Assembly (NCBI RefSeq): GCF_000016165.1
Contig: NC_009253.1
Location: 2,576,332-2,640,331, forward strand
Length of the DNA: 64,000 nt
Direction: 5' to 3'
Source of the DNA: Desulforamulus reducens MI-1
GTDB lineage: Bacteria; Bacillota; Desulfotomaculia; Desulfotomaculales; Desulfotomaculaceae
Below, piece by piece: positions 3,901-21,810 of this stretch. Positions within the stretch are counted from its first letter, which is position 1. Each line of letters begins with the position of its first letter. The position numbers and the translations under genes were made by a program. The notes below the pieces were generated by a model, which made no database searches, had not been told where the DNA came from, and was given only the letters and a program-made list of their open reading frames with translations.

Positions 3901-4230
3901 ATACCCCGCGGCGATGGCTTTACCTATTTCACCAGCGAACCAATCATTTGCTTTAACATCTGAAAAATTAAATTCTATTATTTCTGTAAAACCAAAGGAC
4001 CTGTTTACTAGTGCTACAAATTCCGCCCTTGTAATATTGTTGTCTGGCTTAAATTGGCCGTCCTCATATCCTTTGGCCAAACCACTTTGCACCCACCCGC
4101 TTAATTGATTTTCAGCCCAGTGTCCTTTAATGTCGGAGTCTTGGGCTAACACAGCCATGGGCATTAAAGTTAACAACAACAAAATTATCAGTAACTGGAT
4201 AAATAACTTATTTTTTATTTTCTCAACCAT
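985..4230 (-). CDS. SLH-domain surface (S-layer type) protein with InlB-B-like repeat
   Basis: A predicted exported cell-wall protein of about 1081 aa. Residues 1-30 form a signal peptide ending AVLA. Three S-layer homology domains follow at about 33-80, 89-138 and 151-200, each with an ITRAE or ITRQE core; such domains bind pyruvylated secondary cell-wall polymer. Next comes a Val/Thr/Asn-rich, beta-helix-like stretch (about 215-420), a Gly/Ser linker, and an InlB-B-type repeat near 465-540 (NPEAGGTVSGGGSY, GYKFIDW). The C-terminal half is beta-rich with no domain I can name. The end carries four 8-residue repeats (TDELTDPV type). ATG at 4230 follows AAAGGGAGGT at good spacing. The substrate or partner is unknown. 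It lies between hisZ and hisG, opposite a membrane regulator. Confidence 0.9.
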   Translation of the reverse strand: MVEKIKNKLFIQLLIILLLLTLMPMAVLAQDSDIKGHWAENQLSGWVQSGLAKGYEDGQFKPDNNITRAEFVALVNRSFGFTEIIEFNFSDVKANDWFAGEIGKAIAAGYISGYQDGTMKPNNQITRQEVASIISRLLKLDAGSGFNINNFKDAKDMPQWSKAAIGAVSSKGYMGGYSDQTFKPTKPITRAEAIVSLDRVKGQQATAAEKTVFYAKPGTYGPATGRETINGNVTISVADVTLQNTTISGDLLLAEGVGNGDVKLKNVKVSGKTIIKGGGANSVTLEDCSLPNITVSKEGVRVVASGNTTVKVVRLESGATLVETTTTGPGFEAVTLSEIIPASAKVNLTGNFAAVIVATKEVEVEVTAGQIETLEVAKEAIGAIVNVAKDATVNTLTANAAAKVTGEGKIETAKVNAANVSIAQTPTKREVANGVTSSIGGQTVSGGTSSTGGGGGGSGGSSTTTKYEVAVLTNPEAGGTVSGGGSYTQGVAVTVTAIANPGYKFIDWKENGIQVSTNASYSFTMGSAAKTLVANFITEVPVEPAPFTPGEGGTLPDFTPFSSEPGKIGGLYVDRTHRVNEGFIYNGGELGNYAVVDLKFDPPSEYGATSYTLQYSDDGSTWRNYQHYDVDLTTSNNAQDNFSLSSPAGSYKYRLLVNGGDRDGYTSNEVEAPLVAVATTFSGWGLDESMWITGVMSPFVGSGKQASFDVKKLPEHDNTDLSQYLTYQWYRVNPATFTMTAIEGATELTYTTSEADAGYLLLCRATGDGVNVGGFIQILSHWSPVITNKAYVNNVTNDGFTLNLDKSLAGLTPEEVKLSYYAGNNEIIVPINSITPRDNTAMFDIAAAIPQGVSELYLHNTSDFWRLVSVQGGHQGHMMEGVRITLGAPADPAADIAVTLESTEMSVPYHLGVRVKDAATGAPITDLVAGDLDEDSSLVFNFSLEKDGVNIPLQRVFHNEMNNEENEGHYVIYPSDDYRPMAGEYKLTFSKTGYVTTSLDCSFPLEDTNANMLVTLENTDVETIPNNLSVEEINTITDVPITDPVADELTNPVTDELTDPVTDELTNSITDELTDSIPLVD
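1001..1096 (-). repeat. Four tandem 24-bp coding repeats in the SLH gene
   Basis: Four near-identical 24-base units (1001-1024, 1025-1048, 1049-1072, 1073-1096), plus a partial fifth, encode the octapeptide TDELT(D/N)(P/S)(V/I). The unit is a multiple of three, so copy-number change would keep frame and alter only the length of the acidic C-terminal tail. Confidence 0.9.
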
Positions 4231-4677
4231 CACACATTACCTCCCTTTTTAAAATCCAACCATTTTGATGACTTGTTTATTCAACCCACCTTTCTTAAAT
4301 AATTAAAATATAAAGCCATATTTCCATAAACCTAATTAGACAAAAAAGTTGCCACCAAAGACAAAACCCCGGGCAAGGAAATAAATTGGAAAACATAAGA
4401 AGCTGTTAGAAAGCAAAAAGAAATAGCTAAACTTATTTAGCCATAAGAAACAAATTTATCGTGCAATTATTATTACTGTAAAAGGATTACTTAAACTACT
4501 ACCCATTAAGATTGTTTTATGGATATTCTTACCCTGAATGATATCCTACCCCTAAACCTACCCCTAACTTATATCATGTAGTCAAACAGAAACCACCCTT
4601 TGGGTGGTTCAAAATTTTTAAAAAATTTAGGTTTTAGGGGTAGGAAAAAAAACAAAAAAAAAGAATGTATTTTTATT
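4231..4677. other. Divergent intergenic region between the SLH gene and the luxR-type gene
   Basis: This AT-rich 447-bp stretch has no credible gene. It holds three TACCCCT heptamers, two direct (4547-4553, 4559-4565) and one inverted (4636-4642), a GC hairpin at 4591-4609, and a weaker hairpin on the minus strand at 4342-4376 (TTGCC/GGCAA with a following T-run) within the possible SLH leader. Both divergent promoters must be here, but I could not identify one with confidence. Confidence 0.7.
4591..4609 (+). terminator. Hairpin with short T-run upstream of the luxR-type gene
   Basis: AACCACCC, a TTT loop and GGGTGGTT form an 8-bp stem followed by CAAAATTTTT. It lies about 70 bases before the start at 4678, inside the presumed leader, so it may be a leader attenuator and not a gene terminator. 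The inverted heptamers at 4547 and 4636 flank it and could extend the structure. Confidence 0.45.
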
Positions 4678-6129
4678 ATGATTAGAAATAAATTAAAATC
4701 AATTTTATATATGCCGCAATGGGTAGCCCACTCCGCCTCCCTAATCTTGATATTTGGCTGGATCTTAATTTATCCAATGCACGGTTTTTTGTTGCATTAT
4801 CTGTTTGGATCCAATGCTTACCTTTTAGGCCATGTTTTTACTGCAAGTCATGGTCTGGGACTGGTAGCATTAGGACTACTACCCATTTATGTACTTCGAA
4901 ACACCTTATTAGTAAAATTGGCCGGCTTTGCCATTTTCATTTTTACATTTATTTGGACCATATTGCCAGTAAATAGTTACATCCAGTATAGTATATGTAC
5001 TTTACTTGGTTTTATCTCCGCCTACCTAGTACTGATCTGGGCCTGTGGCTTCCATTTTAATAAATATCCAGAGCTTACAGTAGGTTTTGCAATGGCATTT
5101 ACTAACATAATACTTGGCCTAGTGGTATTCGAGTATACCCAACCAGAAACATTGCCTAAAGTTATCACCTCTTTAACCGGACTGGGCCCCCTGTTTGGAG
5201 CTTTTTATCTAGCCCGCCCAAAACCAATAGCAGAACCTCAGCTAATCTTGGAAGAACCAGGAAAAAACAAAACCATCATGTACACATTTCTAGGCATAGC
5301 AATATTGTCTTCTTTCGCCTACTTTTCTGGGGGGTTGTGGTATAGGGCGGTGCTACCCCTGTTCTATTTAAAAATGCCTGAACTAATTGGTATTGAATCC
5401 TTCGTATACGCATTATCCGTTCTTATCCTGGCATTTTTCTCCAACAAATACTCCTTCTACTGGGTAGGAACCATCGGCCTAAGTATGCTAGGGGTTGGCC
5501 TGGCTACTTCAATATCGGGATTAGAAAGTTCCATCGAGGTTACAATAACTCTTTCCTTTTTGGCCATTGGATTTGGAGCCATAGACTTGTTTTACTGGCT
5601 TATACTGCGTAAATTGTCTACTTTTCTAGGATACCAGAAGGCCTTCGGTCTGGGCTTGGGTTTATCCCTGTTTTTTATCACAGCCCCTGGCATAGCCATA
5701 GATACTGGTATTCTTAAAAACCCGCTTTTAAACCCAGTCCTGTCTATAATAGGAGCCTGTCTGTTATTTTTGATTAACCCCCTGCTGGTATATTTGCTTC
5801 GCTCATTGTCATTGTTTTCAGCCAGTGAAAAAATACTTGCCACTCTCACAGATAAGCTGACCGCTACCAGGGATGATCAGATACCCACTGCAAAATTGCC
5901 GGAATATTTTATCAGATTAACCAAGGCTGAGAAAAAAGTGTACGATCTTATCTGCAAAGGTCATACCGACGTGGAAATCGCAAGTTCTCTATTTATATCC
6001 CGTCATACCGTAAAGTTTCATGCTAGAAATATTTTTAAAAAAGCTGGTGTCTCTAACCGAAAGGAACTACTGGCTAACCTGTCTGGAAACAGAGATGAAG
6101 ATAAAAGATACCCCTCTGGAAAGTGCTAA
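4678..6129 (+). CDS. Membrane-bound LuxR-family transcriptional regulator (multi-TM sensor + HTH)
   Basis: A 483-aa protein. Residues from about 15 to 405 are strongly hydrophobic and can form about 12 membrane helices, like an MFS-type permease. The last 65 residues are a LuxR/GerE helix-turn-helix: LTKAEKKVYDLICKGHTDVE, then IASSLFISRHTVKFHARNIF. The layout suggests a one-component regulator that senses at the membrane and binds DNA with its C-terminus; the ligand is unknown. The open frame extends to ATG 4600, but that would cross the upstream hairpin and add a Lys-rich stretch, so ATG 4678 is preferred although its ribosome site is weak. It is divergent from the SLH gene, a likely target. 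The 3' end is embedded in the terminator stem. Confidence 0.85.
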   Translation: MIRNKLKSILYMPQWVAHSASLILIFGWILIYPMHGFLLHYLFGSNAYLLGHVFTASHGLGLVALGLLPIYVLRNTLLVKLAGFAIFIFTFIWTILPVNSYIQYSICTLLGFISAYLVLIWACGFHFNKYPELTVGFAMAFTNIILGLVVFEYTQPETLPKVITSLTGLGPLFGAFYLARPKPIAEPQLILEEPGKNKTIMYTFLGIAILSSFAYFSGGLWYRAVLPLFYLKMPELIGIESFVYALSVLILAFFSNKYSFYWVGTIGLSMLGVGLATSISGLESSIEVTITLSFLAIGFGAIDLFYWLILRKLSTFLGYQKAFGLGLGLSLFFITAPGIAIDTGILKNPLLNPVLSIIGACLLFLINPLLVYLLRSLSLFSASEKILATLTDKLTATRDDQIPTAKLPEYFIRLTKAEKKVYDLICKGHTDVEIASSLFISRHTVKFHARNIFKKAGVSNRKELLANLSGNRDEDKRYPSGKC

Positions 6130-6158
6130 AACATTAGCTTTCCGAAGGGGTATCTTTT
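6104..6158. terminator. Bidirectional terminator between the luxR-type gene and hisZ
   Basis: A long imperfect palindrome (AAAGATACCCCT ... AGGGGTATCTTT) with extra inner pairing GGAAAG/CTTTCC has A/T runs on both sides, so it can end transcription from both convergent genes. Its left arm encodes the last residues and stop codon of the regulator. Confidence 0.85.
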
Positions 6159-6174
6159 ATCAAAAATAAACAGA

Positions 6175-7380
6175 TTATAGGCTTAACTCCTCACTTTTGC
6201 CTTCTTTATCAAAATAGATCACCCTAGAAGCTCCCAGGCTTCTGGCCTCGGCCTTGGCCTTTGCCGGTGGATATTCGAACATGGCAGTAACCACCTTTAG
6301 TCCCTGGTATCTTAATTCCTTTACACATTGGAGGGCATTAGCCAGACTATTATCCTCCCAAGCCACCAGTACATCCGGTACTGGTTCCCTTGGGGGACCC
6401 TGTAGACGCTCCAGTGCCACCAAAACCCGTTCTAGATTAACCGCAAAGCCCGTGGCAGGCATGGGTAAACCAAATTTTGCCAAAAGTTGATTGTAGCGAC
6501 CTCCACCACAAATGGGAAAGCCCATGGCTACGGTATAACCTTCAAATACCAGACCAGTATAATAATCCAGTCCCCTTAACAAACCTAAATCCAGGGTTAT
6601 ATGCCTTTCCACGCCATAACAGGTTAATCCCCAGTACAGTTGACGAAGATTATCAATGGCATCAGCAGCTGGCCCTGGTTGGGCCAACCCAAATGCCCGG
6701 TCTAATATTTCCGGCCCGCCACGCAATTCAATAAGATCCAGTGTCCGGCGAGCTTCCTCCGGTGTGGCCGCGTGGGAGCCAAGAATTTCTTCCACCTTAA
6801 CAAAATCTTTATTTCCCAGGGCTTCTTTCAGTTCCTGGGCTACTTCCTTGGGCAGACCCAGTTGCTTTACTAAGCCATGAAATATGCCTACATTACCAAT
6901 GCTAATTTGAAAATCGGCTAATCCGGTCTGCATTAAATATTCAGCCACCATTGCCACCACTTCAGCATCAGCTTCAGGCGACGAAGGGCCCATTAATTCC
7001 ACCCCTGCCTGATAAAACTCCCTTTGGCGACCTACCTGGGGCTGTTCATAATTGAAAACATTGGCCAAGTAAAAAAGTCTTAGGGGTGGTGTGATCCCTT
7101 TCATACGGGTGGCCACCAAACGAGCCATTGGACGTGTCATATCCGGGCGTAGAGCCATTAAATGGCCCTGCCGGTCCAGGAACTTAAAAAACTTTTCTTC
7201 CTGTAGTTCCTCAGAGGCCAGATTTTCCATGTATTCAAAGGTGGGGGTTACAACTTCTTTATACCCCCAGGTCTCCACCAGTTTGGTGAATTTTTCTTTT
7301 AGCCCACGCATTAAATGAGCTTCTGCGGGCAGTACATCCCTGACACCGGGAGCCAGCCGACCAAATCTGCTTGATGTCAT
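6175..7380 (-). CDS. hisZ: ATP phosphoribosyltransferase regulatory subunit
   Basis: HisZ is a catalytically inactive paralogue of histidyl-tRNA synthetase that forms a complex with short HisG and gives it activity and histidine feedback. The 401-aa protein has class II synthetase-like segments: LRPDMTRPMARLVATR near 77 and RGLDYYTG at 269-276. Only a short C-terminal extension (about residues 335-401) follows the synthetase core. ATG at 7380 follows AAAGAGGTGAATTT. A full histidyl-tRNA synthetase would normally be longer and carry an anticodon-binding domain; the presence of a short hisG in the window supports HisZ. It lies 14 bp after the yerC-like gene and is convergent with the luxR-type gene. 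Confidence 0.93.
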   Translation of the reverse strand: MTSSRFGRLAPGVRDVLPAEAHLMRGLKEKFTKLVETWGYKEVVTPTFEYMENLASEELQEEKFFKFLDRQGHLMALRPDMTRPMARLVATRMKGITPPLRLFYLANVFNYEQPQVGRQREFYQAGVELMGPSSPEADAEVVAMVAEYLMQTGLADFQISIGNVGIFHGLVKQLGLPKEVAQELKEALGNKDFVKVEEILGSHAATPEEARRTLDLIELRGGPEILDRAFGLAQPGPAADAIDNLRQLYWGLTCYGVERHITLDLGLLRGLDYYTGLVFEGYTVAMGFPICGGGRYNQLLAKFGLPMPATGFAVNLERVLVALERLQGPPREPVPDVLVAWEDNSLANALQCVKELRYQGLKVVTAMFEYPPAKAKAEARSLGASRVIYFDKEGKSEELSL

Positions 7381-7978: not shown

Positions 7979-9247
7979 CTACTCCCTGTTTAAAGCCCTC
8001 TGTCCAATATCCGATCTGTAGTGGGCTCCAGCAAAATGGATAGCCTTAACTCCTTGATAGGCCAGTTCGACGGCCTTGGAGATGTCTCGGCCAGTGGCGG
8101 TTACACCCAGAACTCTGCCGCCGGACACAACAACCTCGCCTTGCCGCAGGGTGGTACCGGCGTGGAATACTTCTACGCCTGCTGGGACCTGATCGAAGCC
8201 AGTTATTGCCATATCCTTTTCGTACTCTCCGGGGTAGCCCTTGGCTGCCATAACCACACAAACAGCCGCTTCATCCTTCCACATCACCGATTGTTGGGCC
8301 AACCTGTCTTCCATGATGGCTTCCATAATATCCACTAGGTCTGTCTCCAGCAGGCTTAATACCGGCTGGGTTTCCGGATCACCGAAGCGGGCATTAAATT
8401 CTAGCACCTTCGGCCCCTCGGGTGTTACCATGAGCCCTGCATAGAGCACACCCCGGTAGGTCCGACCTTCCGAAGCCAAGGCCTTCACCGTCGGGTATAA
8501 AATATCCCGCTCCACTAGCTTGGCCAGTTCCGACGTATAAACTGGTGCCGGAGCATAGGCACCCATGCCCCCGGTGTTGGGGCCAGTATCCTGATCCCCC
8601 ACTCTCTTATGGTCCTGGGAAGCTACCATCGGTACAATGGTTTCTCCATCCACAAAGGCTAGAATGCTTACTTCTTCACCCTGTAAAAACTCTTCTATCA
8701 CCACACGATCCCCAGCCTTGCCAAAGGCCCTTTCTGCCATGATGATATCCACCGCTGCCAGAGCTGTTTCATCATCCATTGCTACGATAACACCCTTACC
8801 CGCAGCTAAGCCATCGGCCTTAATGACACAGGGTGCACCATATTTCTTTACATACTCCCTTGCTTCCTCAGCATCTTCAAAGGTTGCATAACGGGCAGTG
8901 GGGATGTTGTATTTAGCCATAATATCTTTAGCCAGGGCTTTACTGCCTTCTATTTCCGCAGCAGCCTTGGAGGGACCAAAAATTTTAAGACCTTCCTGCT
9001 GGAACAGATCCACAATACCATTGGTCAAAGGGATTTCCGGCCCCACCACTGTCAGGTCAATCTGTTCTTTTTTAGCGAAATTCAGCAATCCCTGGGTATC
9101 CTCTGCACGAACATTGATGCAGGCAGCAATCTGGCTGATACCCGCATTACCTGGGGCGCAGTATATTTGCTTCACGCGGGGGCTTTGTCTGAGCTTCCAG
9201 ACCAAGGCGTGTTCCCGCCCGCCACCGCCAACCACTAAAATTTTCAT
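7979..9247 (-). CDS. purD: Phosphoribosylamine-glycine ligase (GAR synthetase)
   Basis: PurD joins glycine to phosphoribosylamine using ATP, the second step of IMP synthesis. The 422-aa length is normal. The N-terminus KILVVGGGGREHALVWKL, the ATP-grasp segment KADGLAAGKGV and DTGPNTGGMGAYAPAP are family signatures. ATG at 9247 follows GGAGTGGTC. It is the last gene of the pur operon, 22 bp after purH, and is followed by a strong terminator. Confidence 0.98.
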   Translation of the reverse strand: MKILVVGGGGREHALVWKLRQSPRVKQIYCAPGNAGISQIAACINVRAEDTQGLLNFAKKEQIDLTVVGPEIPLTNGIVDLFQQEGLKIFGPSKAAAEIEGSKALAKDIMAKYNIPTARYATFEDAEEAREYVKKYGAPCVIKADGLAAGKGVIVAMDDETALAAVDIIMAERAFGKAGDRVVIEEFLQGEEVSILAFVDGETIVPMVASQDHKRVGDQDTGPNTGGMGAYAPAPVYTSELAKLVERDILYPTVKALASEGRTYRGVLYAGLMVTPEGPKVLEFNARFGDPETQPVLSLLETDLVDIMEAIMEDRLAQQSVMWKDEAAVCVVMAAKGYPGEYEKDMAITGFDQVPAGVEVFHAGTTLRQGEVVVSGGRVLGVTATGRDISKAVELAYQGVKAIHFAGAHYRSDIGQRALNRE

Positions 9248-9269: not shown

Positions 9270-10811
9270 CTAGTGCTTAAAATGCCGCATGCCGGTAAAG
9301 ACCATGGCAATGCCGTGCTCGTTACAAGCTTGAATGGATTCTTCATCCCGAATGGAACCGCCGGGTTGAATAACGGCTTTCACCCCGGCTTTGGCCGCTT
9401 CATCTATGGTGTCCCGGAAGGGGAAGAAGGCATCACTGGCCATGACAGCCCCCCGGGCCCCTTCGCCGGCCTGTTCAAAGGCAATGCGGGCGGAGCCAAC
9501 CCGATTCATCTGGCCTGCCCCAACACCAATAATCTGTCCATCCTTAGAAAGAACAATGGCGTTGGACTTCACATGCTTAACCACCGTCATGGCAAAGATT
9601 AATTCCTTTAATTCTTGCGGCGAGGGTTGGCGTTCGGTTACAACCTTCACCTCATCCATGTTCAACACCCGCCGATCTGCCTGCTGGACCAAAAGTCCCC
9701 CGTTCACCTTCCGGACCTCTAACACATCATTGGTTTGCTCCGTTAGTTCCCCGGTTTTCAGTAACCTAAGATTGGCTTTCTTGGTCAAAATGTCCAAAGC
9801 TTCGGTAGTAAAGTCCGGTGCGATAACCGCTTCCAAAAAGATCTTAGCCATTTCAGCGGCCGTATCTCCATCAAGGGTCCGGTTCACCGCCACAATACCC
9901 CCGTAGGCAGAAACAGTGTCCGCTGCAAAGGCCTTACGGTAAGCCGCTGGCAAATCCTCTGCAGTGGCGGTACCACAGGGATTATTATGTTTAATGATAA
10001 CTGCACTGGGTTCACTAAATTCTCGAACCAGTTCCAGGGCGCTGTTGGCATCCAGGATATTATTATAGGAAAGTTCTTTCCCATGAATTTGAACGGCATT
10101 GGCAATACAGGGTCCAGTAATGCCGGGATCTTTGTAAAAGGCAGCCCTCTGGTGCGGGTTTTCCCCATAGCGCAAGTCCTGGACCTTGACTAAAGAAAAG
10201 TTAAACTCAGGACGAAATGCCTCTGCTTGGCTTACGCTGCCCAGATAATTGGCAATGGCTGTATCATAACTGGCCGTGTGGGCAAAGGCTTCCCTGGCCA
10301 ACTCCAAACGCTGATCTCCTGTAAGTTCTCCCTTTTCCCCTAAGGCTTCCAGAACCTGACCGTAACGCTGGGGATTGACCACAACCCCCACATAGGCATG
10401 GTTCTTAGCCGCGGACCGTACCATAGTGGGCCCACCAATATCAATATTTTCTATGGCATCTTCCAAGGTCACCTCAGGTTTGGCAATGGTTTCACGAAAA
10501 GGATAAAGGTTTACCACCACCAGGTCTATGGGTGTAATGTTATGTTCTTCAAGTTGGCTAAGATGTTCTTCGGTCCGCATGGCTAAAATACCACCATGAA
10601 CATTGGGATGCAGGGTTTTAACCCGGCCATCCAAAATTTCCGGAAAACCGGTAACATCTGATATATAAATTACCGGTACACTGGCCTCCCGCAGGACTTT
10701 TGCGGTGCCGCCGGTGGAGATAATCTCCACTCCCAGTTTCGCCAACCCCCTGGCAAAATCCACCAGACCGGTTTTATCGGAAACACTAATTAAAGCGCGT
10801 TTGATTTTCAT
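9270..10811 (-). CDS. purH: Bifunctional AICAR formyltransferase / IMP cyclohydrolase
   Basis: PurH performs the last two steps of IMP synthesis: formylation of AICAR with 10-formyl-THF and ring closure. The 513-aa protein has an N-terminal MGS-like cyclohydrolase domain (about 1-140, with [15 protein letters not shown] and GGTAKVLRE) and a C-terminal transformylase domain with the KHNNPCGTA motif. It begins with ATG at 10811. It follows purN by 60 bp, where neither a terminator nor a promoter is obvious. Confidence 0.98.
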
Positions 10812-10871: not shown

Positions 10872-11483
10872 TCATTTCTTAATATATACTTTCCGCCCCA
10901 CAACCTGCAGCCGTCCTTCAGCAAACAACTTAACTGCCTCTGGATAAATCCGGTGTTCCTGATTGAGAATCCGGGCTGACAGGCTTTCCTCTGTATCGTC
11001 ATCCAGCACCGGAACCGCTGCTTGTAAAATAATAGGGCCGGTGTCCATCCCTTCATCCACAAAATGCACCGTGCAACCAGATATCTTAACCCCATACTGC
11101 AGGGCATCCCTCTGCCCATGTAAGCCGGTAAAGGATGGCAATAAAGCAGGATGAATGTTCATAATCCGATTAGGGAAAGCCCTTAACAGGGATTCCCCCA
11201 CCAAGCGCATGTAGCCTGCCAGGCAAACCAGTTCCACACCAGCATCTTGCAAAAGCTTAACAACAGCCTGTTCGTATTCTCTCTTACCGGGAAAGGATCT
11301 AATCTCTAACCCAAAGGCCGTAATCCCTGCCTGCCGGGCCCTTTCCAGGGCATAGGCAGCAGGTTTATCGCTGATTACCACCACCACTTCCGCCGCAACT
11401 GTCCCCTCCTGGCAGCGATCCAGGATGGACTGCAAATTGGAACCCCGCCCCGAAGCCAATACCCCTATCCGTAATTTATTCAT
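10872..11483 (-). CDS. purN: Phosphoribosylglycinamide formyltransferase (GART)
   Basis: PurN transfers a formyl group from 10-formyl-THF to GAR. The 203-aa protein carries the catalytic segments NIHPALLPSF and HFVDEGMDTGPII, which supply the conserved Asn, His and Asp. The N-terminus LRIGVLASGRGSNLQSI is typical. ATG at 11483 follows GGGAGAAAT. It sits 24 bp after purM in the pur operon. Confidence 0.97.
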   Translation of the reverse strand: MNKLRIGVLASGRGSNLQSILDRCQEGTVAAEVVVVISDKPAAYALERARQAGITAFGLEIRSFPGKREYEQAVVKLLQDAGVELVCLAGYMRLVGESLLRAFPNRIMNIHPALLPSFTGLHGQRDALQYGVKISGCTVHFVDEGMDTGPIILQAAVPVLDDDTEESLSARILNQEHRIYPEAVKLFAEGRLQVVGRKVYIKK

Positions 11484-11507: not shown

Positions 11508-12560
11508 TTAACCCTGTATATATTCAACTTGTGAAGGACCACTTTCCACCTGTCCAATCAGATAGGCCTGTTCATGACGGCTGGCTAAATCCTGCAGCAC
11601 CGCCGCTGACTCTGCTGCGGGTACAATCAATACCATGCCGATTCCCATATTAAAGGTACGCAGCATTTCCTCTTCTGCTACCTGGCCAATCTGTTGAATT
11701 AGCTGGCATACGGGCAATACCGGCCAAGCGGAACGGTTCAGTACCACCTTGACCCCTTCGGGCAACATACGGGGAATATTTTCAGTTAAGCCACCGCCGG
11801 TAATATGGGCCATTCCCTTGACAGTAAACTTTTCCAGCAGCGGTTGAACTGCCTTGACATAGATACGTGTGGGTTCCAGTAATTCTTCCCCAACAGAACG
11901 GCCCAGCTCTTTTACGGTATCGGTCATCCCGTAACCTGCTACCTCCAGCAGGGCCTTCCGGGCCAAGGAATAACCATTGCTATGGAGACCTGAAGAAGGA
12001 AGACCAATTACAGCATCCCCTGCTTCAATACCTCTACCATCAATTAACTGCGTACGCTCCACAACGCCTACGGCAAAGCCGGCAATGTCATATTCTTCTA
12101 CTGCATAAAAACCCGGCATTTCTGCTGTTTCCCCGCCAATTAAGGCACAACCGGCCTGGCGGCAACCTTCGGCCACACCCTTTACAATCTCGGCCACCCT
12201 TTCGGGCACTAGCTTCCCCACAGCTAGATAATCCAGAAAAAACAGTGGTTCTGCCCCCTGAACCAAGATATCATTCACACACATGGCCACGGCATCAATG
12301 CCAATGGTGTGATGATTGTCGGTTAGTTGAGCCACACGTAATTTGGTGCCTACGCCATCGGTACCGGAAACCAATACCGGCTCCTTATATTTACCGGCAT
12401 TGAGAGCAAAGAGTCCCCCAAAGCCTCCAATGTCCGTCAGAACCTCCGGTCGAAAGGTGCTACGTACTGCCTGCTTCATGAGACTGACAGCCTGGTTTCC
12501 TGCTTCGATATTGACCCCCGCCCCAGCATAGGTAAGGGGTTGTGATTTCTGCTCTGTCAT
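11508..12560 (-). CDS. purM: Phosphoribosylformylglycinamidine cyclo-ligase (AIR synthetase)
   Basis: PurM closes the imidazole ring of AIR using ATP. About 350 aa, normal size, with the family features [20 protein letters not shown] and [11 protein letters not shown]. The open frame begins with GTG at 12566, but ATG at 12560 lies at better distance from GGGAG and is preferred. It starts 13 bases after the purF stop. Confidence 0.97.
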
Positions 12561-12572
12561 GGACACACTCCC

Positions 12573-13997
12573 TTATTCCAGACTGAACTTACCGCCCTGC
12601 GTCTGTTTGGGCACTTCCACCGGGTAAATGCCGTTGAAACATGCGGTACAGAAGTTCTTTTCCTTGGGTGCAAAGATATCCAACAACCCCTCCAGGCTTA
12701 AATAGTGTAAGCCATCTGCCTCGATGCTCTGGCAGATTTCCTCTGGAGACTTTTGGGCTGCAATCAATTCTTGTTCGTTGGAAGTATCAATACCGTAATA
12801 GCAAGCCCGAAGAACTGGCGGTGAACTAATGACCATATGAACTTCCTTGGCTCCGGCCTCCCGCAGCATGGCTACAAGCTTTTGACTGGTGGTACCCCGC
12901 ACTATGGAGTCATCCACCATCACCACACGTTTGCCCTGCAACACCTCACGAATGGGGTTTAACTTCATGCGCACTCCCAATTCCCGCATTTCTTGGGTAG
13001 GCTGAATAAAGGTCCGGCCAATATAGCGGTTTTTCATTAGCCCCTCTTCGAAGGGTATCCCCGACTCTTCGGCATAACCCCTAGCCGCTGCGGTACCTGA
13101 ATCCGGTACTGGTATGACAATATCTGCATCCACCAAGTATTCCCGGGCCAATTGACGCCCCATCTCTCGGCGCACCTTATTCACGTTAAAGCCATCCATT
13201 GTGCTATCGGGCCGGGCAAAGTAAATATATTCAAAAATACAATGGGCCGGGCATTGTGCTGTCAGGCCGTGGGTTGTGGTTAATCCCCCACGATCAATAC
13301 GAATAATTTCGCCGGGTTCTACATCTCGGACAAAGGTGGCCCCCACAGTGGTAAGGGCACAGGATTCCGAGGCTACCACATAGCCTTCGCCCAGACGACC
13401 CAAACAAAGGGGCCTGAGACCGTAGGGATCCCGTGCAGCATATAAAGTATCCTCGGTGATAATTAGCAATGCATAGGCCCCTTTAACATCAATCATGCAT
13501 TTCATCAGAGCTTCTTCCACGCTGTTAGCATTATACCGGGCAATCAAGTTCACCAGCACCTCACTGTCAGTGGTGGATTGAAAGACCGAACCAGTGGAGG
13601 CCAATTGAGCTCGCAGGTCCGCCACATTGGTGAGGTTTCCATTATGCGCCAACCCCAACATCCCCTTGGCGTAACGAAACACCAGGGGCTGGGCGTTAAG
13701 GGGAGAACTGGCGCCAGTGGTGGAATAGCGTACATGTCCAATGGCAGCAAAGCCCGAGAATTTATCCAGACTATGCCCCGAAAAAACTTCCGGTACCAGC
13801 CCCATTCCCTTTTGAAGTTCAATCTGACTTCCATCGGCCACCGCAATACCGGCACTTTCCTGTCCCCTATGCTGCAGGGCGTGAAGCCCGTAGTAAGTTA
13901 AACGAGCCACATCCAACCCAGGAGCAAAAATGCCAAACACACCACATTCTTCCACTGGCTTATCGGACCAAAGGATCGTACCTATTTCATTAAACAT
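12573..13997 (-). CDS. purF: Amidophosphoribosyltransferase
   Basis: PurF commits PRPP to purine synthesis by forming phosphoribosylamine with glutamine as amine donor. In the 474-aa protein Cys18 (EECGVFGIF) would be the N-terminal nucleophile after removal of a 17-residue propeptide. The PRPP loop [14 protein letters not shown] is present, and the C-terminal NFCTACFNG resembles the cysteines that hold a 4Fe-4S cluster in the Bacillus-type enzyme. Its start overlaps the end of purL by 16 bp, indicating coupled translation. Confidence 0.98.
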
Positions 13998-16207
13998 TCA
14001 ATCGCCCCCCGCCAGGTTTCTGCCAGCTTGGACACGGATAGATTTATCAAATTGCCGCCGCAACCGGTGCAACCAGGATTTACAACATTGATGACCAATG
14101 AATTGCCTCCCACGGTTCCCAACTGGCTGTAGGGTACTCCGGCATCCACCAGCTTTTTAACCAATTCCACACCTTTGCTGCGGTCGAGGGAGATCACAAT
14201 GCGGGACTGGCTTTCCCCAAAAAGTAGAGCGTCCCCTCTGAATCTGCGTACCATTGTGATATCCGCTCCCAAACCGCCGGCAATGCAACACTCAGCCAAG
14301 GCCACAGCCAAGCCGCCTTCGGAACAGTCATGGGCAGATTTAATCAAACCGTTCTTTATTTCATTCAGTACAAACTGCTGAATTTTCTTTTCTAATGCCA
14401 GGTCCAGTACCGGTGCCTTACCCTTTTCCAATCCATGATGCACCTTTAGATATTCACTACCGCCTAGCTCTGGAAGGTTTTCACCAATCAAGAAAATGGC
14501 GTCTCCCTCTGTCTTAAAATCCTGGGTACATACCTTGTCCAAATCTTCCACCAAGCCCACCATACCAATGGTAGGGGTGGGATAAACGGCACTGCCCTTT
14601 GTTTCATTGTATAAACTTACGTTACCTCCAGTCACGGGAGTTTCCAGTACTCGGCAAGCCTCTCCCATTCCTTCGATGCAGCGCCAGAAGGTCCACATGA
14701 CTTCCGGCTTTTCCGGATTACCAAAATTGAGGCAGTTAGTAATAGCCAGGGGTTTTGCCCCGGAACAAACTAAGTTGCGGGCTGCCTCAGCCACGGCAAT
14801 GGCTGCGCCGGTTTTTGGGTCCAGATAGCAAAAGCGACCGTTGCAATCGGTGGTCATGGCAATGCCCTTTTTGGTCCCCTTGACCCGTAATACCGCGGCA
14901 TCAGAGCCAGGCAGGACAACAGTATTGAGACCCACCATATGGTCATATTGTCGGTAGACGTATTCTTTGCTGGCAATGTTAGGGGTCGCCAGCAGCTTTA
15001 GCAGCACTTCATTATAGTCATCGGGCATATTAAGCTGCTCCAGCGGAAAATTATGAATGTCTTCTAAATAAGCAGGTACTTCGGTGGGCCGGTGATATAG
15101 CGGTGCTTCGTCTGTCAGGGCTTTGGCAGGCATCTCTGCCACCACCTGATCCCCTTCCTTCAGGCGCAGCAGTCCATCGTCTGTAACCTGCCCCACCACC
15201 ACGCAGTCCAGGTCCCATTTTGCAAAGATATCTTTTACTTTATCCTCGGTACCCTTTTCAACCACCAGCAGCATCCGCTCCTGGGATTCCGACAGCATTA
15301 GCTCATAGGGGGTCATTCCCTCTTCCCGGCGGGGTACCAGGGCTAAATCCATCTCCAGTCCAGTACCAGCCCGGCTGGCCATTTCACAGGAAGAACTGGT
15401 TAATCCCGCAGCACCCATATCCTGAATACCTACCACATAACCGGTTTTAATAACCTCCAGACAAGCTTCTAAAAGAAGTTTTTCCATAAAAGGGTCCCCT
15501 ACCTGCACAGCAGGACGCCTTTCTGCAGCTGCTTCAGACAATTCTTCCGAGGCAAAGGTGGCCCCATGTATACCATCACGGCCGGTTTTGGCACCAACCA
15601 CCATGACCGGGTTACCAACTCCGGCGGCCAGACCTTTTTTAATATCCTTCTGGTCAATTAAGCCCACACACATGACATTTACCAGACAGTTTTCTTCATA
15701 GCTATCTGAGAAATATACTTCACCACCCACCGTAGGCACACCGATACAGTTGCCGTAGCCGCTGATACCAGATACTACACCATCAAAAAGGTAGCGTACC
15801 CGGGGGTTATCCAGTTCACCAAAACGCAGACTGTCTAACACGGCAATGGGCCTGGCACCCATGGTAAAGATATCCCGTAAAATTCCACCCACACCGGTGG
15901 CCGCACCTTGATAGGGCTCAATGGCTGAAGGGTGGTTATGACTTTCTATTTTAAAGACAACAGCTTGTCCATCGCCAATGTCAACAATACCAGCATTTTC
16001 GCCGGGTCCCTGCAGAATGGCCGGTCCCTCGGTGGGGAGCGTTTTCAAGGCTGGCCGGGAAGTTTTGTAACTGCAGTGTTCCGACCACATAACGGCAAAT
16101 ATACCAACTTCTACATAGTTAGGGTGGCGACCCAGAATCTCTACGATCCTTTCATACTCAGAGTCAGTCAGGCCCATCTCCCGCCAAACCTTTTCCTCCA
16201 CTATCAT
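13982..16207 (-). CDS. purL: FGAM synthase, small PurL subunit
   Basis: The synthase subunit of the three-part FGAM synthetase converts FGAR to FGAM with ammonia delivered by PurQ, assisted by PurS. At about 741 aa it is the small form, as expected with separate purS and purQ. Motifs include [20 protein letters not shown] and [10 protein letters not shown]. The open frame extends to 16216, but ATG 16207 overlaps the purQ stop (TAATG) and is preceded by AGGAGGTGT inside purQ, so it is the likely start and is coupled to purQ. Confidence 0.98.
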
Positions 16208-16908
16208 TAGCCACACCTCCTCTGCCAGGTTTCCAGCAAGGATTTAAAAATCAGTTGTCCATCAATATTACCCAGTATTTCTTCGGCACAGCGTTCCGGG
16301 TGGGGCATCATGCCCAGCACATTGCCCTGCTCATTGCAAATACCAGCAATGTTGTTTACAGAACCATTGGGATTGACTCCCTGTGTAATTTCGCCATTGT
16401 AATCACAATAACGGAACACAACCTGATTATTTTCTTCTAAACGACGGACCGTGTCTGAATCCGCAAAATAATTTCCCTCACCATGGGCAATGGGAACCTT
16501 AATAACACTACCCCGGCTGGCCAATGAAGTAAAGGGAGAAATATCATTCTCCACCCTTAAATAGGTGTCATGACAAAGGAAAGATAAATTTTTATTTCGA
16601 TGTAGGGCTCCGGGTAAAAGACCTGCTTCGGTCAAAACCTGAAATCCATTGCAAATTCCCAGCACCAGTCCACCCCTGCGGGCAAATTCAATAACCGGTG
16701 ACATCACAGGGGAAAACCTTGCCACAGCGCCGCATCGCAAATAATCTCCATAGGAGAATCCCCCAGGCAGCACGATGCAGTCATAACCATCCACGCTGCC
16801 AGACTTGTGCCAAATGTAATCCACCGGCTGCCCGGTAACAGTTTTAATGGCATGCAGGCAATCGGCGTCACAATTGGAGCCAGGAAAAACCACCACTCCA
16901 AATTTCAC
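16207..16908 (-). CDS. purQ: FGAM synthase glutaminase subunit
   Basis: PurQ hydrolyses glutamine and passes ammonia to PurL. The 233-aa class I amidotransferase has the nucleophile Cys in [10 protein letters not shown] and the catalytic His/Glu in [10 protein letters not shown]. The start is GTG at 16908, after GGAGGTGTAAAGC at the end of purS. Its stop overlaps the purL ATG. Confidence 0.97.
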
Positions 16909-16911
16909 GCT

Positions 16912-17160
16912 TTACACCTCCACCAGTTCAAATGTATAGTCTTCAATTACCGGATTAACCAGCAATTTATCACACATATCACGTACCTGTTTTTCTGCTT
17001 CAGCCCTGTCAGTGATTTCTATATCAACCACCATATAACGTCCAATACGTACTTCAGGAACATTGGAATAGCCCAGGGCACAAAGGGATTTACGCACTAC
17101 ATTTCCCTGGGGGTCCAATACACTTTTCCTAAGGGTAACGTAAATCTTTGCTTGAAACAC
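16912..17160 (-). CDS. purS: FGAM synthase subunit PurS
   Basis: PurS is a small dimeric subunit needed to assemble the PurQ-PurL complex. The 82-aa protein contains KIYVTLRKSVLDPQG and CDKLLVNPVIEDY, typical of the family. The start is GTG at 17160, with TAAGGAGGGCTTAGC before it. Together with purQ and purL this gives the Gram-positive/archaeal type of FGAM synthetase. Confidence 0.95.
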   Translation of the reverse strand: MFQAKIYVTLRKSVLDPQGNVVRKSLCALGYSNVPEVRIGRYMVVDIEITDRAEAEKQVRDMCDKLLVNPVIEDYTFELVEV

Positions 17161-17324: not shown

Positions 17325-18035
17325 TTAGGCTTCTCCGGTTAAGCGGCGCAGTACTTCCTGGTAAGCTCCTTCCACGTTGCCCAAGTCCCGGCGGAAGCGA
17401 TCTTTATCCAATTTTTCTCCGGTGGTTTTATCCCAGAAACGGCAGGTGTCCGGAGATATTTCATCACCCAGCAAAACTTGACCTTTATGAAGTCCGAATT
17501 CTAATTTGTAGTCAATGAGGTCAATGTTAACAGGGGCTAAGTATTCTCGCATAATGTCATTTACTTTCAGGGCAGTTTCTTTGATAAAAGCCATTTGCTC
17601 CGGGGTTGCCAGGTCCAAGGCTGCAATATGTGAGGCGTTAATTAAAGGGTCGCCCAAGTTGTCATCCTTATAATAATATTCAAGAACTGTTTTCGGCAGA
17701 ATGGTTCCTTCCGGAAGTCCCACTCTTTTTGCCAGGGTGCCGGCCACAATATTACGGACCACAACTTCTACTTTGATAATATCCAGGGCCTTAACAATCA
17801 TTTCACGGTCGTTTACCAGCTCAACAAAATGAGTAGTAATGCCTTTGCTCTCCATAAGTTTAAAAAAAACTGCTGAAACTTTGTTGTTAACGACACCTTT
17901 GTTATCAATGGTACCTTTCTTTTGCCCATTAAAGGCAGTGGCATCATCTTTATACTCAACCCAGTAAAAATCAGGATTATCGGTACGATAAACCTTTTTT
18001 GCTTTACCTTCATAAATCATTTCTAACTTTTCCAT
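17325..18035 (-). CDS. purC: SAICAR synthetase
   Basis: PurC condenses CAIR with aspartate using ATP. The 236-aa length fits bacterial Pur[17 protein letters not shown] at the start, [16 protein letters not shown] and LIDYKLEFG are recognisable. ATG at 18035 follows AAAAGGGGAGGATATA. It is the first gene after the purB terminator, so it relies on read-through or on a promoter in 18036-18140 that I could not pin down. Confidence 0.97.
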
Positions 18036-18198: not shown

Positions 18199-19491
18199 TT
18201 AAAGTCCAAACCGGGCATAAATATCGTCAATATGAGACAGGTGATAGCTATAATCAAAGAGTCCGGTTAACTCTTCTGAAGTGATATGAGACATAATGTC
18301 GGCGTCCGCTTTCAATAAATCAATAAACTTGGTACCAGTACGCCAGGCTTCCATAGCATTGCGTTGTACCATTTCGTAGGCCTGTTCCCTGGTTAAGCCT
18401 TTATCCACCAAGGCCAACAGCACCCGTTGGGAGAATACCAAACCCAGGGTTTTTTCCAGGTTTCGTTTCATATTTTCTGGGTACACCAACAGTTTTTCCA
18501 TAATACCGGTAAAACGATAAAGCATAAAATCTAAAGCAGTGGTACTGTCAGGGATAATGACCCGTTCAGCGGAAGAATGGGAAATGTCTCTCTCGTGCCA
18601 GAGTGTTACATTATCCAAGGCTGCCATGGCATTGGCTTTCACCACCCGGGACAGGCCAGATACATTTTCTGCTGTGATGGGATTCCGCTTGTGGGGCATG
18701 GCTGAGGAACCCTTTTGGCCTTTATTGAAGTACTCCTCCGCTTCTAAAATATCTGTACGCTGCAAATTGCGAATCTCTGTGGCAAACTTGTCTAGGGAGG
18801 CGGCGATGACTGCCATTGTGCAGAGATAATCTGCATGGCGGTCCCGTTGTAGAATTTGGGTGGAAACCCGAGCTGGCTTCAGCCCCAGCCTATTACAAAC
18901 ATGGGCCTCAATCTTGGGATCAATATTGGCATAGGTTCCCACTGCACCGGAAATTGCTCCTACACTTACTGTCTTAATGGCGTCCTGTAGACGCTCCATG
19001 TTACGTTCGGTTTCAGCTACCCAAAGTAGCATCTTCAGACCAAAGGTCATGGGCTCCGCATGAATACCGTGAGTTCTGCCAATCATGATGGTATGTCTGT
19101 GTTCCTTGGCCTTTTCCAGCAGTACTTGGCGCAGGCGTTCTAGTTTTTTAAGGATTAGTTCCCCGGCTTCTTTCATGCGCACACACTGGGCCGTATCCAC
19201 TACATCAGAGGATGTAAGACCCATGTGTATATATTTAGAATCTTCCCCTACGTTCTCAGCCACGCAGGTTAAGAAGGCAATCACATCGTGTCTGGTAACT
19301 TCTTCAATTTCCAGAATACGTTCCACAGAAAAGCTAGCCCGTGCCTTAATGTTCTCCAGAGCCTCCGCAGGAATTTGTCCCAATTCAACCATAGCTTCGC
19401 AGGCAGCTATTTCTACGTCCAGCCATTTTTGGAATTTGTTTGTGTCAGACCAGATGTGCTTCATTTCGGGCAAGGTATAACGTTCAATCAT
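18199..19491 (-). CDS. purB: Adenylosuccinate lyase
   Basis: PurB removes fumarate from SAICAR and from adenylosuccinate, so it acts in both IMP and AMP synthesis. The 430-aa protein has the fumarase/aspartase-superfamily signature GSSAMPHKRNP, with the flexible catalytic loop, and MGLTSSDVVDTA. ATG at 19491 is preceded by GGAGGAACC. It is the third gene of the riboswitch-controlled unit, 30 bp after purE, and is followed by a terminator. Confidence 0.98.
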   Translation of the reverse strand: MIERYTLPEMKHIWSDTNKFQKWLDVEIAACEAMVELGQIPAEALENIKARASFSVERILEIEEVTRHDVIAFLTCVAENVGEDSKYIHMGLTSSDVVDTAQCVRMKEAGELILKKLERLRQVLLEKAKEHRHTIMIGRTHGIHAEPMTFGLKMLLWVAETERNMERLQDAIKTVSVGAISGAVGTYANIDPKIEAHVCNRLGLKPARVSTQILQRDRHADYLCTMAVIAASLDKFATEIRNLQRTDILEAEEYFNKGQKGSSAMPHKRNPITAENVSGLSRVVKANAMAALDNVTLWHERDISHSSAERVIIPDSTTALDFMLYRFTGIMEKLLVYPENMKRNLEKTLGLVFSQRVLLALVDKGLTREQAYEMVQRNAMEAWRTGTKFIDLLKADADIMSHITSEELTGLFDYSYHLSHIDDIYARFGL

Positions 19492-19521: not shown

Positions 19522-20037
19522 CTATTTGTTATTCAGGTAACCCTCTACACCCAGCTCTTTTAGCTTGCTGTCCTTGGCTTCCACTTCCCTGGCTAGATCT
19601 TCTTTAAAGTCATGCAATTTTTTCCCCAGTGATGCATCGGCTAAGGCAATCATTTGGGCTGCTAAGATGGCTGCGTTTTTCGCCCCGTTAATGGCCACAG
19701 ATGCCACTGGGATACCCGGAGGCATTTGGGCGATGGAGTAAAGGGCATCCACACCCTCCAAAGCACCGGATTTTACCGGCACCCCGATGACAGGTAAAAT
19801 ACTATGAGCTGCTATGACCCCTGGCAGGTGGGCTGCCAATCCAGCAGCGGCTATAATTACTTTAATTCCTCTGGCCTCCGCAGACCGGGCATACTCAGCA
19901 GTTTTTTCCGGTGCCCGGTGAGCTGAGGAAATGGTTACCTCATAAGAAATTTCAAGTGTATCCAATATTTTAACTGCATCTTTCATCAGCGGCAGATCCG
20001 AGTCACTGCCCAAGACAATACCGACCAAAGCAGTCAT
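19522..20037 (-). CDS. purE: N5-carboxyaminoimidazole ribonucleotide mutase
   Basis: PurE rearranges N5-CAIR to CAIR in class I organisms. About 171 aa, with VLGSDSDLPLMKDA and ISSAHRAPEKTAEY, which match class I PurE. TTG at 20040 is possible, but ATG at 20037 is better placed after AGGAGGGG. The purK gene that normally supplies N5-CAIR is not in this window. It lies between pbuG and purB with short gaps. Confidence 0.95.
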   Translation of the reverse strand: MTALVGIVLGSDSDLPLMKDAVKILDTLEISYEVTISSAHRAPEKTAEYARSAEARGIKVIIAAAGLAAHLPGVIAAHSILPVIGVPVKSGALEGVDALYSIAQMPPGIPVASVAINGAKNAAILAAQMIALADASLGKKLHDFKEDLAREVEAKDSKLKELGVEGYLNNK

Positions 20038-20059
20038 CAACAGCCCCTCCTTTTAGGGT

Positions 20060-21433
20060 TTACTCGCCACCCAGGAAGAGGTAGCGGGCAACAATAATAA
20101 CAAACAGCAGATACATCATCCAATGAACTTCTTTGGCGCGACCGGATGCTACTTTTAAAGTGGTGTAGAAAACGATACCGGCAGCAATACCATTGGCAAT
20201 GTTATAGGTAAAAGGCATTAAAGCAAATGTTAGGAAAGCCGGGAATCCTTCGGTAAAGTCATCGAAGTCAATTTCGCGGATGGCTGAGACCATCAGTAAG
20301 CCCACAATAATTAAGGCTGGGGCGGTGGCTGCATTAGGAATTAGTCCCGCCAGGGGAGCAATGACCAGAGCCAGCAAAAACATGGCGCCGGTGGTTACTG
20401 CGGTCAAACCGGTACGACCACCTTCTCCAACACCAGCAGCACTTTCCACGTAAGCGGTTACGGTACTGGTTCCCATAAAGGCGCCAAAGGAAACACCCAG
20501 GGCATCCACCAGCATGGCTTTACCAATTTTAGGGGATTGCCCATTTTCATCCAGTAGGCCTGCCTTACCAGCTGTGCCTACCAAAGTACCAAAGGTATCA
20601 AACAACTCCACAAAGGTGAAGGTAAATACAATGGTCCAGAGGCCCATTTCAAAGGCACCCATAATATCTAATTTGCCCACATATACCTGACTAAGGTCAG
20701 GTATAGCAAAGGGGGTAAAGTTTTCAGGAATTACTGTAACTCCCATAGGAATACCAATGATGGTGGTCAGTACGATACCAATTAACAGGGACCCCTTTAC
20801 TCCCCTTGACATCAAAATTCCGGTAATGATCAGACCGATAATAGTTAAGACCATGGATGGGTTGTGGAAAGAACCAATAAAAGAATTCCATTCAAAGAAC
20901 TTCAGAGTGGCTACTCCACCCTTTTGCAGGGCATCCATGGTAGGAGGAATGACCGGGCCCGCTTTCACTATGGCCACTTCAGAAAGTTTTAAGCCGATAA
21001 TGGTGATAAATAAACCAATGCCTACGGTGATAGCTCGCTTCATGGAATTAGGAATAGCAACCATCAGGATTTGACGGATCTGGGTCACGGTTAATATAAG
21101 AAAAATAATACCAGAAATAAATACAGCACCCAGTGCTGTTTCCCAGGGCATCCCTTGTCCTTGGGCAGCAACTGCAGCAAAATAAGCATTAAGACCCATA
21201 CCCGGGGCCAGTGCGATGGGAAAGTTGACAAATAAACCCATGGCTATGGTAACCACAGCACCTGCCATAGCAGTGGCGAAAAATACCGCGTTCTTATCCA
21301 TCCCAGTACCAGCCAAGATATTGGGGTTCAAAAACAGAATATAGGCCATTGTCATGAACGTTGTCAGACCGGCTACCACTTCTGTTCTTACTGTGGTTTT
21401 ATTCTCCTTGAGCTTGAATAACTGTTCCAGCAC
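20060..21433 (-). CDS. pbuG: AzgA/PbuG-type purine base permease (NCS2 family)
   Basis: A 457-aa membrane protein of about 12-14 helices that should import hypoxanthine, guanine or a related base by proton symport. The N-terminal block (TTVRTEVVAGLTTFMTMAYI, then FLNPNIL) and GMGLNAYFA are characteristic of the AzgA/PbuG branch. The start is GTG at 21433 after AAGGGAGGAAAATTCAAC. It is the first gene after the tandem riboswitch, which supports a purine substrate. Whether guanine or hypoxanthine is preferred cannot be read from sequence. Confidence 0.93.
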   Translation of the reverse strand: MLEQLFKLKENKTTVRTEVVAGLTTFMTMAYILFLNPNILAGTGMDKNAVFFATAMAGAVVTIAMGLFVNFPIALAPGMGLNAYFAAVAAQGQGMPWETALGAVFISGIIFLILTVTQIRQILMVAIPNSMKRAITVGIGLFITIIGLKLSEVAIVKAGPVIPPTMDALQKGGVATLKFFEWNSFIGSFHNPSMVLTIIGLIITGILMSRGVKGSLLIGIVLTTIIGIPMGVTVIPENFTPFAIPDLSQVYVGKLDIMGAFEMGLWTIVFTFTFVELFDTFGTLVGTAGKAGLLDENGQSPKIGKAMLVDALGVSFGAFMGTSTVTAYVESAAGVGEGGRTGLTAVTTGAMFLLALVIAPLAGLIPNAATAPALIIVGLLMVSAIREIDFDDFTEGFPAFLTFALMPFTYNIANGIAAGIVFYTTLKVASGRAKEVHWMMYLLFVIIVARYLFLGGE

Positions 21434-21551: not shown

Positions 21552-21607
21552 GCAAAAAAACCCAGCACGATAGGTCTCCTCTAATAGAGTGAAACCTACC
21601 GCCTGGG
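21552..21607 (-). terminator. Riboswitch expression-platform terminator
   Basis: On the minus strand a long stem (CCCAGG and CGGTAGGT against ACCTATCG and GCTGGG) is followed by TTTTTTTGC. Its 5' arm includes AGGT of the 3' strand of the PRPP aptamer P1, so aptamer closure and terminator formation are mutually exclusive. Confidence 0.88.
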
Positions 21608-21690
21608 CTTTTATCCCTATCGGTGTAGCGCGCTGACGCCTGTACCGCTCGGTCCGAACCAACCAAAGGTTGTGGAACCCTAGGTACACT
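21588..21690 (-). promoter_or_regulatory. PRPP riboswitch aptamer (ykkC subtype 2 type)
   Basis: The minus strand carries the ykkC-class core: CTAGGGTTCC, GGACCGAGCGGTACAGG, then GGGATAAAAGCCC. The outer helix can pair AGTGTACCT (21690-21682) with AGGTTTCACT (21597-21588). The ykkC scaffold occurs as guanidine, ppGpp and PRPP binders; the purine genes downstream and the adjoining guanine aptamer favour PRPP, which normally turns expression on by preventing the terminator. The class assignment is from conserved sequence; the ligand is inferred from context. Confidence 0.85.
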
Positions 21691-21695
21691 TTCCC

Positions 21696-21762
21696 TCCCG
21701 TAGTCGGGCAATTACGGTTGCCCGGTAGAAACACTTGAGCCAATTCCCAAGCATATACGGAA
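21696..21762 (-). promoter_or_regulatory. Guanine-type purine riboswitch aptamer
   Basis: The minus strand matches the purine aptamer: P1 TTCCGTA/TACGGGA, P2 CTTGGG/TCAAG, the conserved GTTTCTACC joining segment, P3 with CCGTAA in its loop, and GACTACGG at the end. The C in GACTACGG occupies the specificity position (C74 in the xpt numbering), which pairs with guanine; adenine riboswitches have U. It starts about a dozen bases after the expected transcription start and lies five bases before the PRPP aptamer. Confidence 0.92.
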
Positions 21763-21781
21763 CATTAATTTGTACAAACTC

Positions 21782-21810
21782 ATACTAGCAAGAGCTGACC
21801 CGTTTGTCAA
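21782..21810 (-). promoter_or_regulatory. Promoter of the pbuG-purE-purB unit
   Basis: On the minus strand TTGACA (21810-21805), 17 bases, TAGTAT (21787-21782). The start would fall about a dozen bases before the guanine aptamer. Confidence 0.85.

Follow-up and report, generated by a model that had tools for sequence, protein, structure and literature searches.

A predicted guanine-PRPP tandem riboswitch with one common terminator in the leader of the Desulforamulus purine operon

We analysed a stretch of 64,000 nucleotides from Desulforamulus reducens MI-1 (the window), in which an RNA leader on the minus strand is, with a probability of about 0.9, a guanine-PRPP tandem riboswitch that governs the de novo purine operon of Desulforamulus (formerly Desulfotomaculum) through one common transcription terminator. 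A guanine aptamer comes first, a PRPP aptamer adjoins it, and one terminator overlaps the PRPP aptamer. Both aptamers are present with their marker bases, and the overlap of their outer helices is conserved among related tandems. The first-pass annotation, made from the letters alone, had recognised this arrangement as one already described, and guanine-PRPP tandems are indeed a published IMPLY gate, in which expression is switched off solely when guanine is present and PRPP absent; the window tandem is a further example of this known RNA logic gate.

Aptamers, terminator and downstream genes

A sequence scan places a promoter, TTGACA-17-TAGTAT with an extended TG -10 element, at 21782..21810 (-), in agreement with the consensus promoter described in the first-pass annotation. 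It is the sole promoter-like site in the 501 bases scanned, where 0.5 would be expected by chance, and most related tandems also have a similar promoter-like sequence upstream. The guanine aptamer, from P1 to P1, occupies 21696..21762 (-). The Rfam purine model RF00167, which the same annotation had proposed as a check, gave 75.8 bits (E 1.1e-11) against 21780-21681, far over its cut-off of 37. C74 together with U51 distinguishes guanine aptamers from adenine, xanthine and 2'-dG variants (PMC9295807), and the first aptamer has both bases. The guanine rather than the adenine class is indicated because the specificity base (C74-equivalent) is C at 21703, within ACUAC, as had been claimed, and because the J2/3 junction GUUUCUACC is intact.

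The Rfam matches to the second aptamer included no PRPP family, even at E up to 10, and we therefore built our own PRPP covariance model, from an alignment of 33 tandem-linked aptamers, all outside the genus. This held-out model scored the window aptamer at 99.0 bits (E 1e-22) at 21586..21697 (-), and across the window's genome it found exactly three such aptamers. The marker bases of the predicted PRPP aptamer (ykkC subtype 2b) are C49 (21647), C75 (21625), C77 (21623), G96 (21603) and G104 (21596), with residue numbers carried over by counting along Thermoanaerobacter relatives rather than by alignment to the crystal construct. The ykkC fold with P0-P3 and its conserved blocks is present, together with the pyrimidine at position 49 and G96 that belong to subtype 2b. 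The leader has the single terminator that had been reported, with an intrinsic terminator stem at 21561..21607 (-) in the folds, followed in the sequence by a T-tract of seven (T7) at 21554..21560 (-).

Downstream of the leader there is a run of 12 purine genes on the same strand, which is likely a twelve-gene operon, pbuG-purEBCSQLFMNHD. It begins with a pbuG-like NCS2 purine permease (20060..21433 (-), Pfam PF00860), followed by purE (19522..20040 (-), TIGR01162), purB (18199..19491 (-), TIGR00928), purC (17325..18035 (-), TIGR00081), purS (16912..17160 (-), TIGR00302), purQ (16207..16908 (-), TIGR01737), purL (13982..16216 (-), TIGR01736), purF (12573..13997 (-), TIGR01134), purM (11508..12566 (-), TIGR00878), purN (10872..11483 (-), TIGR00639) and purH (9270..10811 (-), TIGR00355). 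It ends at 7979 with purD (7979..9247 (-)), an open reading frame named from our own reading of its sequence, to which tandem-linked reading frames elsewhere are 54-62% identical. The first-pass annotation had taken the element to control pbuG-purE-purB; these genes do follow the leader but are merely the start of the run. The 163 bases that separate purB from purC contain a terminator-like hairpin of 13 pairs at 18188-18159 (-), which might attenuate expression of the pur genes beyond it, and a promoter-like site lies between purC and purS (17272-17243), although neither kind of site exceeds chance in the region. Because of these two sites, full co-transcription of the twelve genes is not proven.

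A strand common to the guanine P1 and PRPP P0 helices

The folds and the comparison of 80 tandems described below point to a contested strand, UACGGGAG, at 21695..21702 (-). Positions 21702-21696 pair with 21756-21762 in guanine P1, and 21697-21695 pair with 21587-21589 in outer PRPP P0, so that G21697 and A21696 are common to both helices. The P0 5' strand, GAG(G)GAAA at 21690..21697 (-), has its partner UUUC(A)CUC at 21594-21587, a pairing based on the fold and on P0 covariation. The terminator 5' arm in turn holds the P3 3' strand CCC (21607-21605), G96 (21603) and AGGUUUC (21597-21591, including the P0 3' strand UUUC at 21594-21591), and for this reason the PRPP pocket, once folded, excludes the terminator and vice versa. 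The AGGT that the first-pass annotation had seen as shared by the terminator arm and the outer helix is therefore real but understated, and the exclusive pairings it had read for aptamer closure and termination are reproduced by the predicted folds, in which the terminator 5' arm takes up the P3 and P0 strands.

In a secondary-structure model, to which tertiary contacts and ligands are external, the full 223-nt RNA folds into guanine P1 and the long terminator at -88.4 kcal/mol (z = -4.67; 0 of 200 shuffles fold as well), as compared with -70.3 kcal/mol when P0 and P3 are held. The terminator fold is thus favoured over the alternative by about 18 kcal/mol, and so the choice between the two folds must be kinetic. 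In the same model, an RNA ending at 21586, before the terminator 3' arm, forms P0 and a five-pair P1 at -61.2 kcal/mol, and holding P1 at seven pairs gives -60.3, a cost of just 0.9 kcal/mol.

We infer the binding of both ligands, the succession of steps and the IMPLY logic of the output as follows. RNA made as far as 21586 would have two folds of almost equal energy. Guanine in the first aptamer would keep P1 at full length, taking G21697 and A21696, and outer P0 would be blocked; as P0 yields, its 3' strand AGGUUUC and the CCC of P3 would enter the terminator, and transcription would halt. PRPP in the second aptamer would hold P0 and P3 and occupy the terminator 5' arm, leading to read-through, and in this PRPP-bound state guanine P1 would be shortened to five pairs. 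The logic proposed in the first-pass annotation, in which PRPP allows transcription and guanine opposes it, is the one that Sherlock et al. measured for the B. megaterium member, where the same architecture switches in vitro and in B. subtilis (PMC5912903). Exclusion between P0 and P1 has also been proposed for the T. mathranii tandem (PMC6031431).

A scan for tandem-like patterns across 84,980 species, each represented by one genome, returned 114 stretches, of which 80 were drawn on, some of these being singlets. The comparison set, assembled from the scan and from related genomes, consists of 80 tandems whose strands could be read; over the strands compared, 55 of these tandems are distinct. 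P1 and P0 have at least 1 nt in common in 77 of the 80 tandems and at least 3 nt in 67, counts that are slightly low because four loci (L066, L070, L099 and L102) look mis-anchored. When full-length RNAs were folded, the P0 strand lay in the terminator in 74 of 77, and P0 never coexisted with the terminator. Among truncated RNAs (n = 77) P0 prevails in 22 and P1 in 49, so folding alone shows the competition in some tandems but not in every one.

The P0 column pair 2-133 is AU in 18 cases, UA in 6 and GU in 6, and pair 4-131 is UA in 10, UG in 7 and CG in 5; P0 outer pairs are retained in 82% of cells versus 75% after partner shuffling (sd 1.4%), and P1 pairs 3-7 in 93% versus 76%, all of these figures being inflated by related sequences. 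At the contested base the triple is U-A-U in 47 tandems and A-U-A in 6, the latter within one clade (L056-L066), where the swap may be a single evolutionary event. Singlet PRPP aptamers (n = 19) also have P0, with inner pairs in 17-19 of 19 and outer pairs in 9-17 except at one position (7). This suggests that the guanine aptamer borrows a P0 strand that was already there.

A different account, in which both aptamers work but guanine acts by steric clash or coaxial stacking rather than by capture of the P0 strand, is unlikely yet has to be weighed seriously. The overlap in the window is just 2-3 nt, a seven-pair P1 and inner P0 are compatible at a cost of 1.5 kcal/mol, and steric interference was also considered by Sherlock et al. 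(PMC5912903). These observations have to be set against a strand that is common to nearly all tandems, against overlaps that in most cases are of at least 5 nt, and against the P1 5' strand often copying the P0 3' strand, as with CACTC at both sites in Thermoanaerobacter. The window overlap is smaller than in most relatives, and here the competition may be weaker or mainly steric. Strand capture, with the common P1/P0 strand of 80 tandems at its centre, is a hypothesis specific enough to be probed by mutation, and it takes further what had been proposed for a single species.

Decayed relatives and the identity of the second aptamer

Several loci in related genomes depart from the full tandem. 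At L067 6009-6194 (-) (genome G045), before an importer-xpt operon, a guanine aptamer of 85.3 bits is followed by a degenerate PRPP half of 35.1 bits, seemingly a tandem losing one input. In D. aeronauticus (G006) a decayed tandem lies directly before an adenine deaminase gene (L063, purine match at 6251-6345 (-)); it has U for C at the specificity position, with scores of 37.0 for the purine and 58 for the PRPP model, and may represent either a move towards adenine sensing or mere decay. At L062, about 6108-6300 (-) (G007), a PRPP aptamer of 101.7 bits is preceded by a guanine aptamer reduced to a short hairpin with P1 retained. We set this collapsed aptamer aside as evidence, because the genes there are full of frameshifts and the assembly is 72% complete, so that it may be an error.

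Relics such as those at L067 and L063 raise the question of whether one aptamer of the window is also a relic, with a single ligand mattering in this organism. This is very improbable for a tandem in which neither half has weakened (75.8 and 99.0 bits) or lost a marker base, and whose orthologues at the same operon retain both aptamers.

The second aptamer also matches the Guanidine-I model RF00442, at 56.9 bits, slightly below the cut-off of 63, because the subtypes have the ykkC scaffold in common; a score under the cut-off is what is expected of a different ykkC subtype. A pyrimidine at position 49 excludes guanidine-I, and G at position 96 separates PRPP from ppGpp aptamers (PMC6031431). 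The window has C49 rather than the A49 of guanidine-I, and at 21603 it keeps the G96 that ppGpp subtype 2a lacks or has exchanged for A, C or U; G is found at this position in 80 of the 80 tandems compared. As controls we used ten weakly scoring ykkC-type sites from related genomes, nine of them readable at position 49, where six have A and three have G. The G49 copies precede NUDIX-like genes, and at least three of the A49 copies lie upstream of SMR-type transporters, according to our own reading of the translations. With the PRPP model, Guanidine-I and NUDIX-linked copies reach about 44-52 bits and the window aptamer 99.0. Guanidine-I identity was rejected on C49 and the model scores, the NUDIX-linked subtype on C49 where the controls carry G49, and ppGpp identity on G96 and the model scores. 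That the second aptamer senses ppGpp or guanidine rather than PRPP is very improbable, given these bases and scores, the presence of P0 and the purine synthesis genes downstream.

The first-pass annotation had called the second aptamer PRPP-type, an assignment favoured here by the non-genus model and by C49 and G96, and had named two outcomes that would count against its reading. A covariance score below threshold was not found for the purine aptamer, and the second aptamer, although below the Rfam guanidine-I cut-off, reaches 99.0 bits with the PRPP model, which leaves no refutation in substance. Nor, judged by C49, G96 and the PRPP-model score, is the guanidine or ppGpp class in substance its best match.

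Further tandems and comparison with known systems

Two further guanine-PRPP tandems, about 89% identical to that of the window, are present in the window's genome. The second (L038 6219-6430 (-)) lies before an importer-xpt operon encoding a PnrA-like substrate-binding protein, an ABC ATPase, two permeases and xpt. The third (L039 6644-6861 (-), also covered by L182) is followed by genes for an adenine deaminase, the molybdopterin subunit of a xanthine dehydrogenase and a second PnrA-like importer with ABC parts; the FAD and iron-sulphur subunits are encoded immediately upstream of it. These contexts recur in relatives of two families, the window's genome included: 14 tandems precede de novo synthesis genes, 10 importer-xpt genes, and 4 adenine deaminase-xanthine dehydrogenase genes. 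Outside this class nearly all tandems precede pur genes or pbuG. The exceptions, two loci in other Bacillota (L079 and L118) whose tandems lie upstream of a gene of the phosphorylase superfamily and of a PnrA-like binding protein, are a second lineage with salvage targets. In the same genome as the window, a singlet guanine riboswitch (L040, 96 bits) lies before a second NCS2 permease (3473-4768 (-)). A model of the B. subtilis-type PurR gave no match in this genome over its cut-off of 258.7, the best match, at 78 bits, being the xpt gene.

We lean towards the view that the guanine-PRPP gate was copied in this lineage and is used as a purine regulon. Three near-identical gates, in one genome where no B. 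subtilis-type PurR was found, would then permit every PRPP-consuming route of purine acquisition, and the common P1/P0 strand would be the switch element. If this is true, the regulon would take in de novo synthesis, the import of nucleosides together with xanthine phosphoribosyltransferase, and the conversion of adenine and hypoxanthine to xanthine, and the gate would have a broader role than the published one, in which it serves the IMP/ATP route only. Tandem copies before purine uptake and recycling genes are less expected than purine-synthesis targets. The published rationale is that AMP is raised and GMP-specific genes are avoided. It is at odds with a gate placed before xpt, adenine deaminase and a xanthine dehydrogenase subunit, since Xpt makes XMP.

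The guanine-PRPP tandem, its logic and its use with purine genes were described in 2018 from 127 cases (PMC5912903), and a 2022 review counts 192, lists IMP and ATP genes as targets and states that the structural changes behind the IMPLY gate are yet to be established (PMC9481103). The public genome that holds the window may already be among the 127 or 192. Our search for open-access papers that name both "PRPP riboswitch" and "xanthine dehydrogenase" returned none, the supplementary gene lists of Sherlock 2018 lying outside this search. With those lists aside, the common-strand comparison and the salvage and catabolic targets go somewhat beyond the published description.

Like the B. megaterium codA tandem (PMC5912903), the window tandem has a guanine aptamer directly 5' of a PRPP aptamer, with few bases between them, one terminator and purine-related genes; it differs in that its operon is pbuG-pur, and in that binding and switching were measured for B. 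megaterium, whereas the window tandem is known from its sequence. With the T. mathranii tandem, the source of the PRPP aptamer crystal structure (PMC6031431), it shares C49 and G96, and in that tandem PRPP P0 and guanine P1 are reported to be mutually exclusive. Thermoanaerobacter tandems have at least 5 bases common to P1 and P0, whereas the window has 2-3, together with a G-A mismatch inside P0. Finally, singlet PRPP riboswitches of other Desulfotomaculum-related genomes have the same PRPP aptamer with P0 as the window but lack the upstream guanine aptamer.
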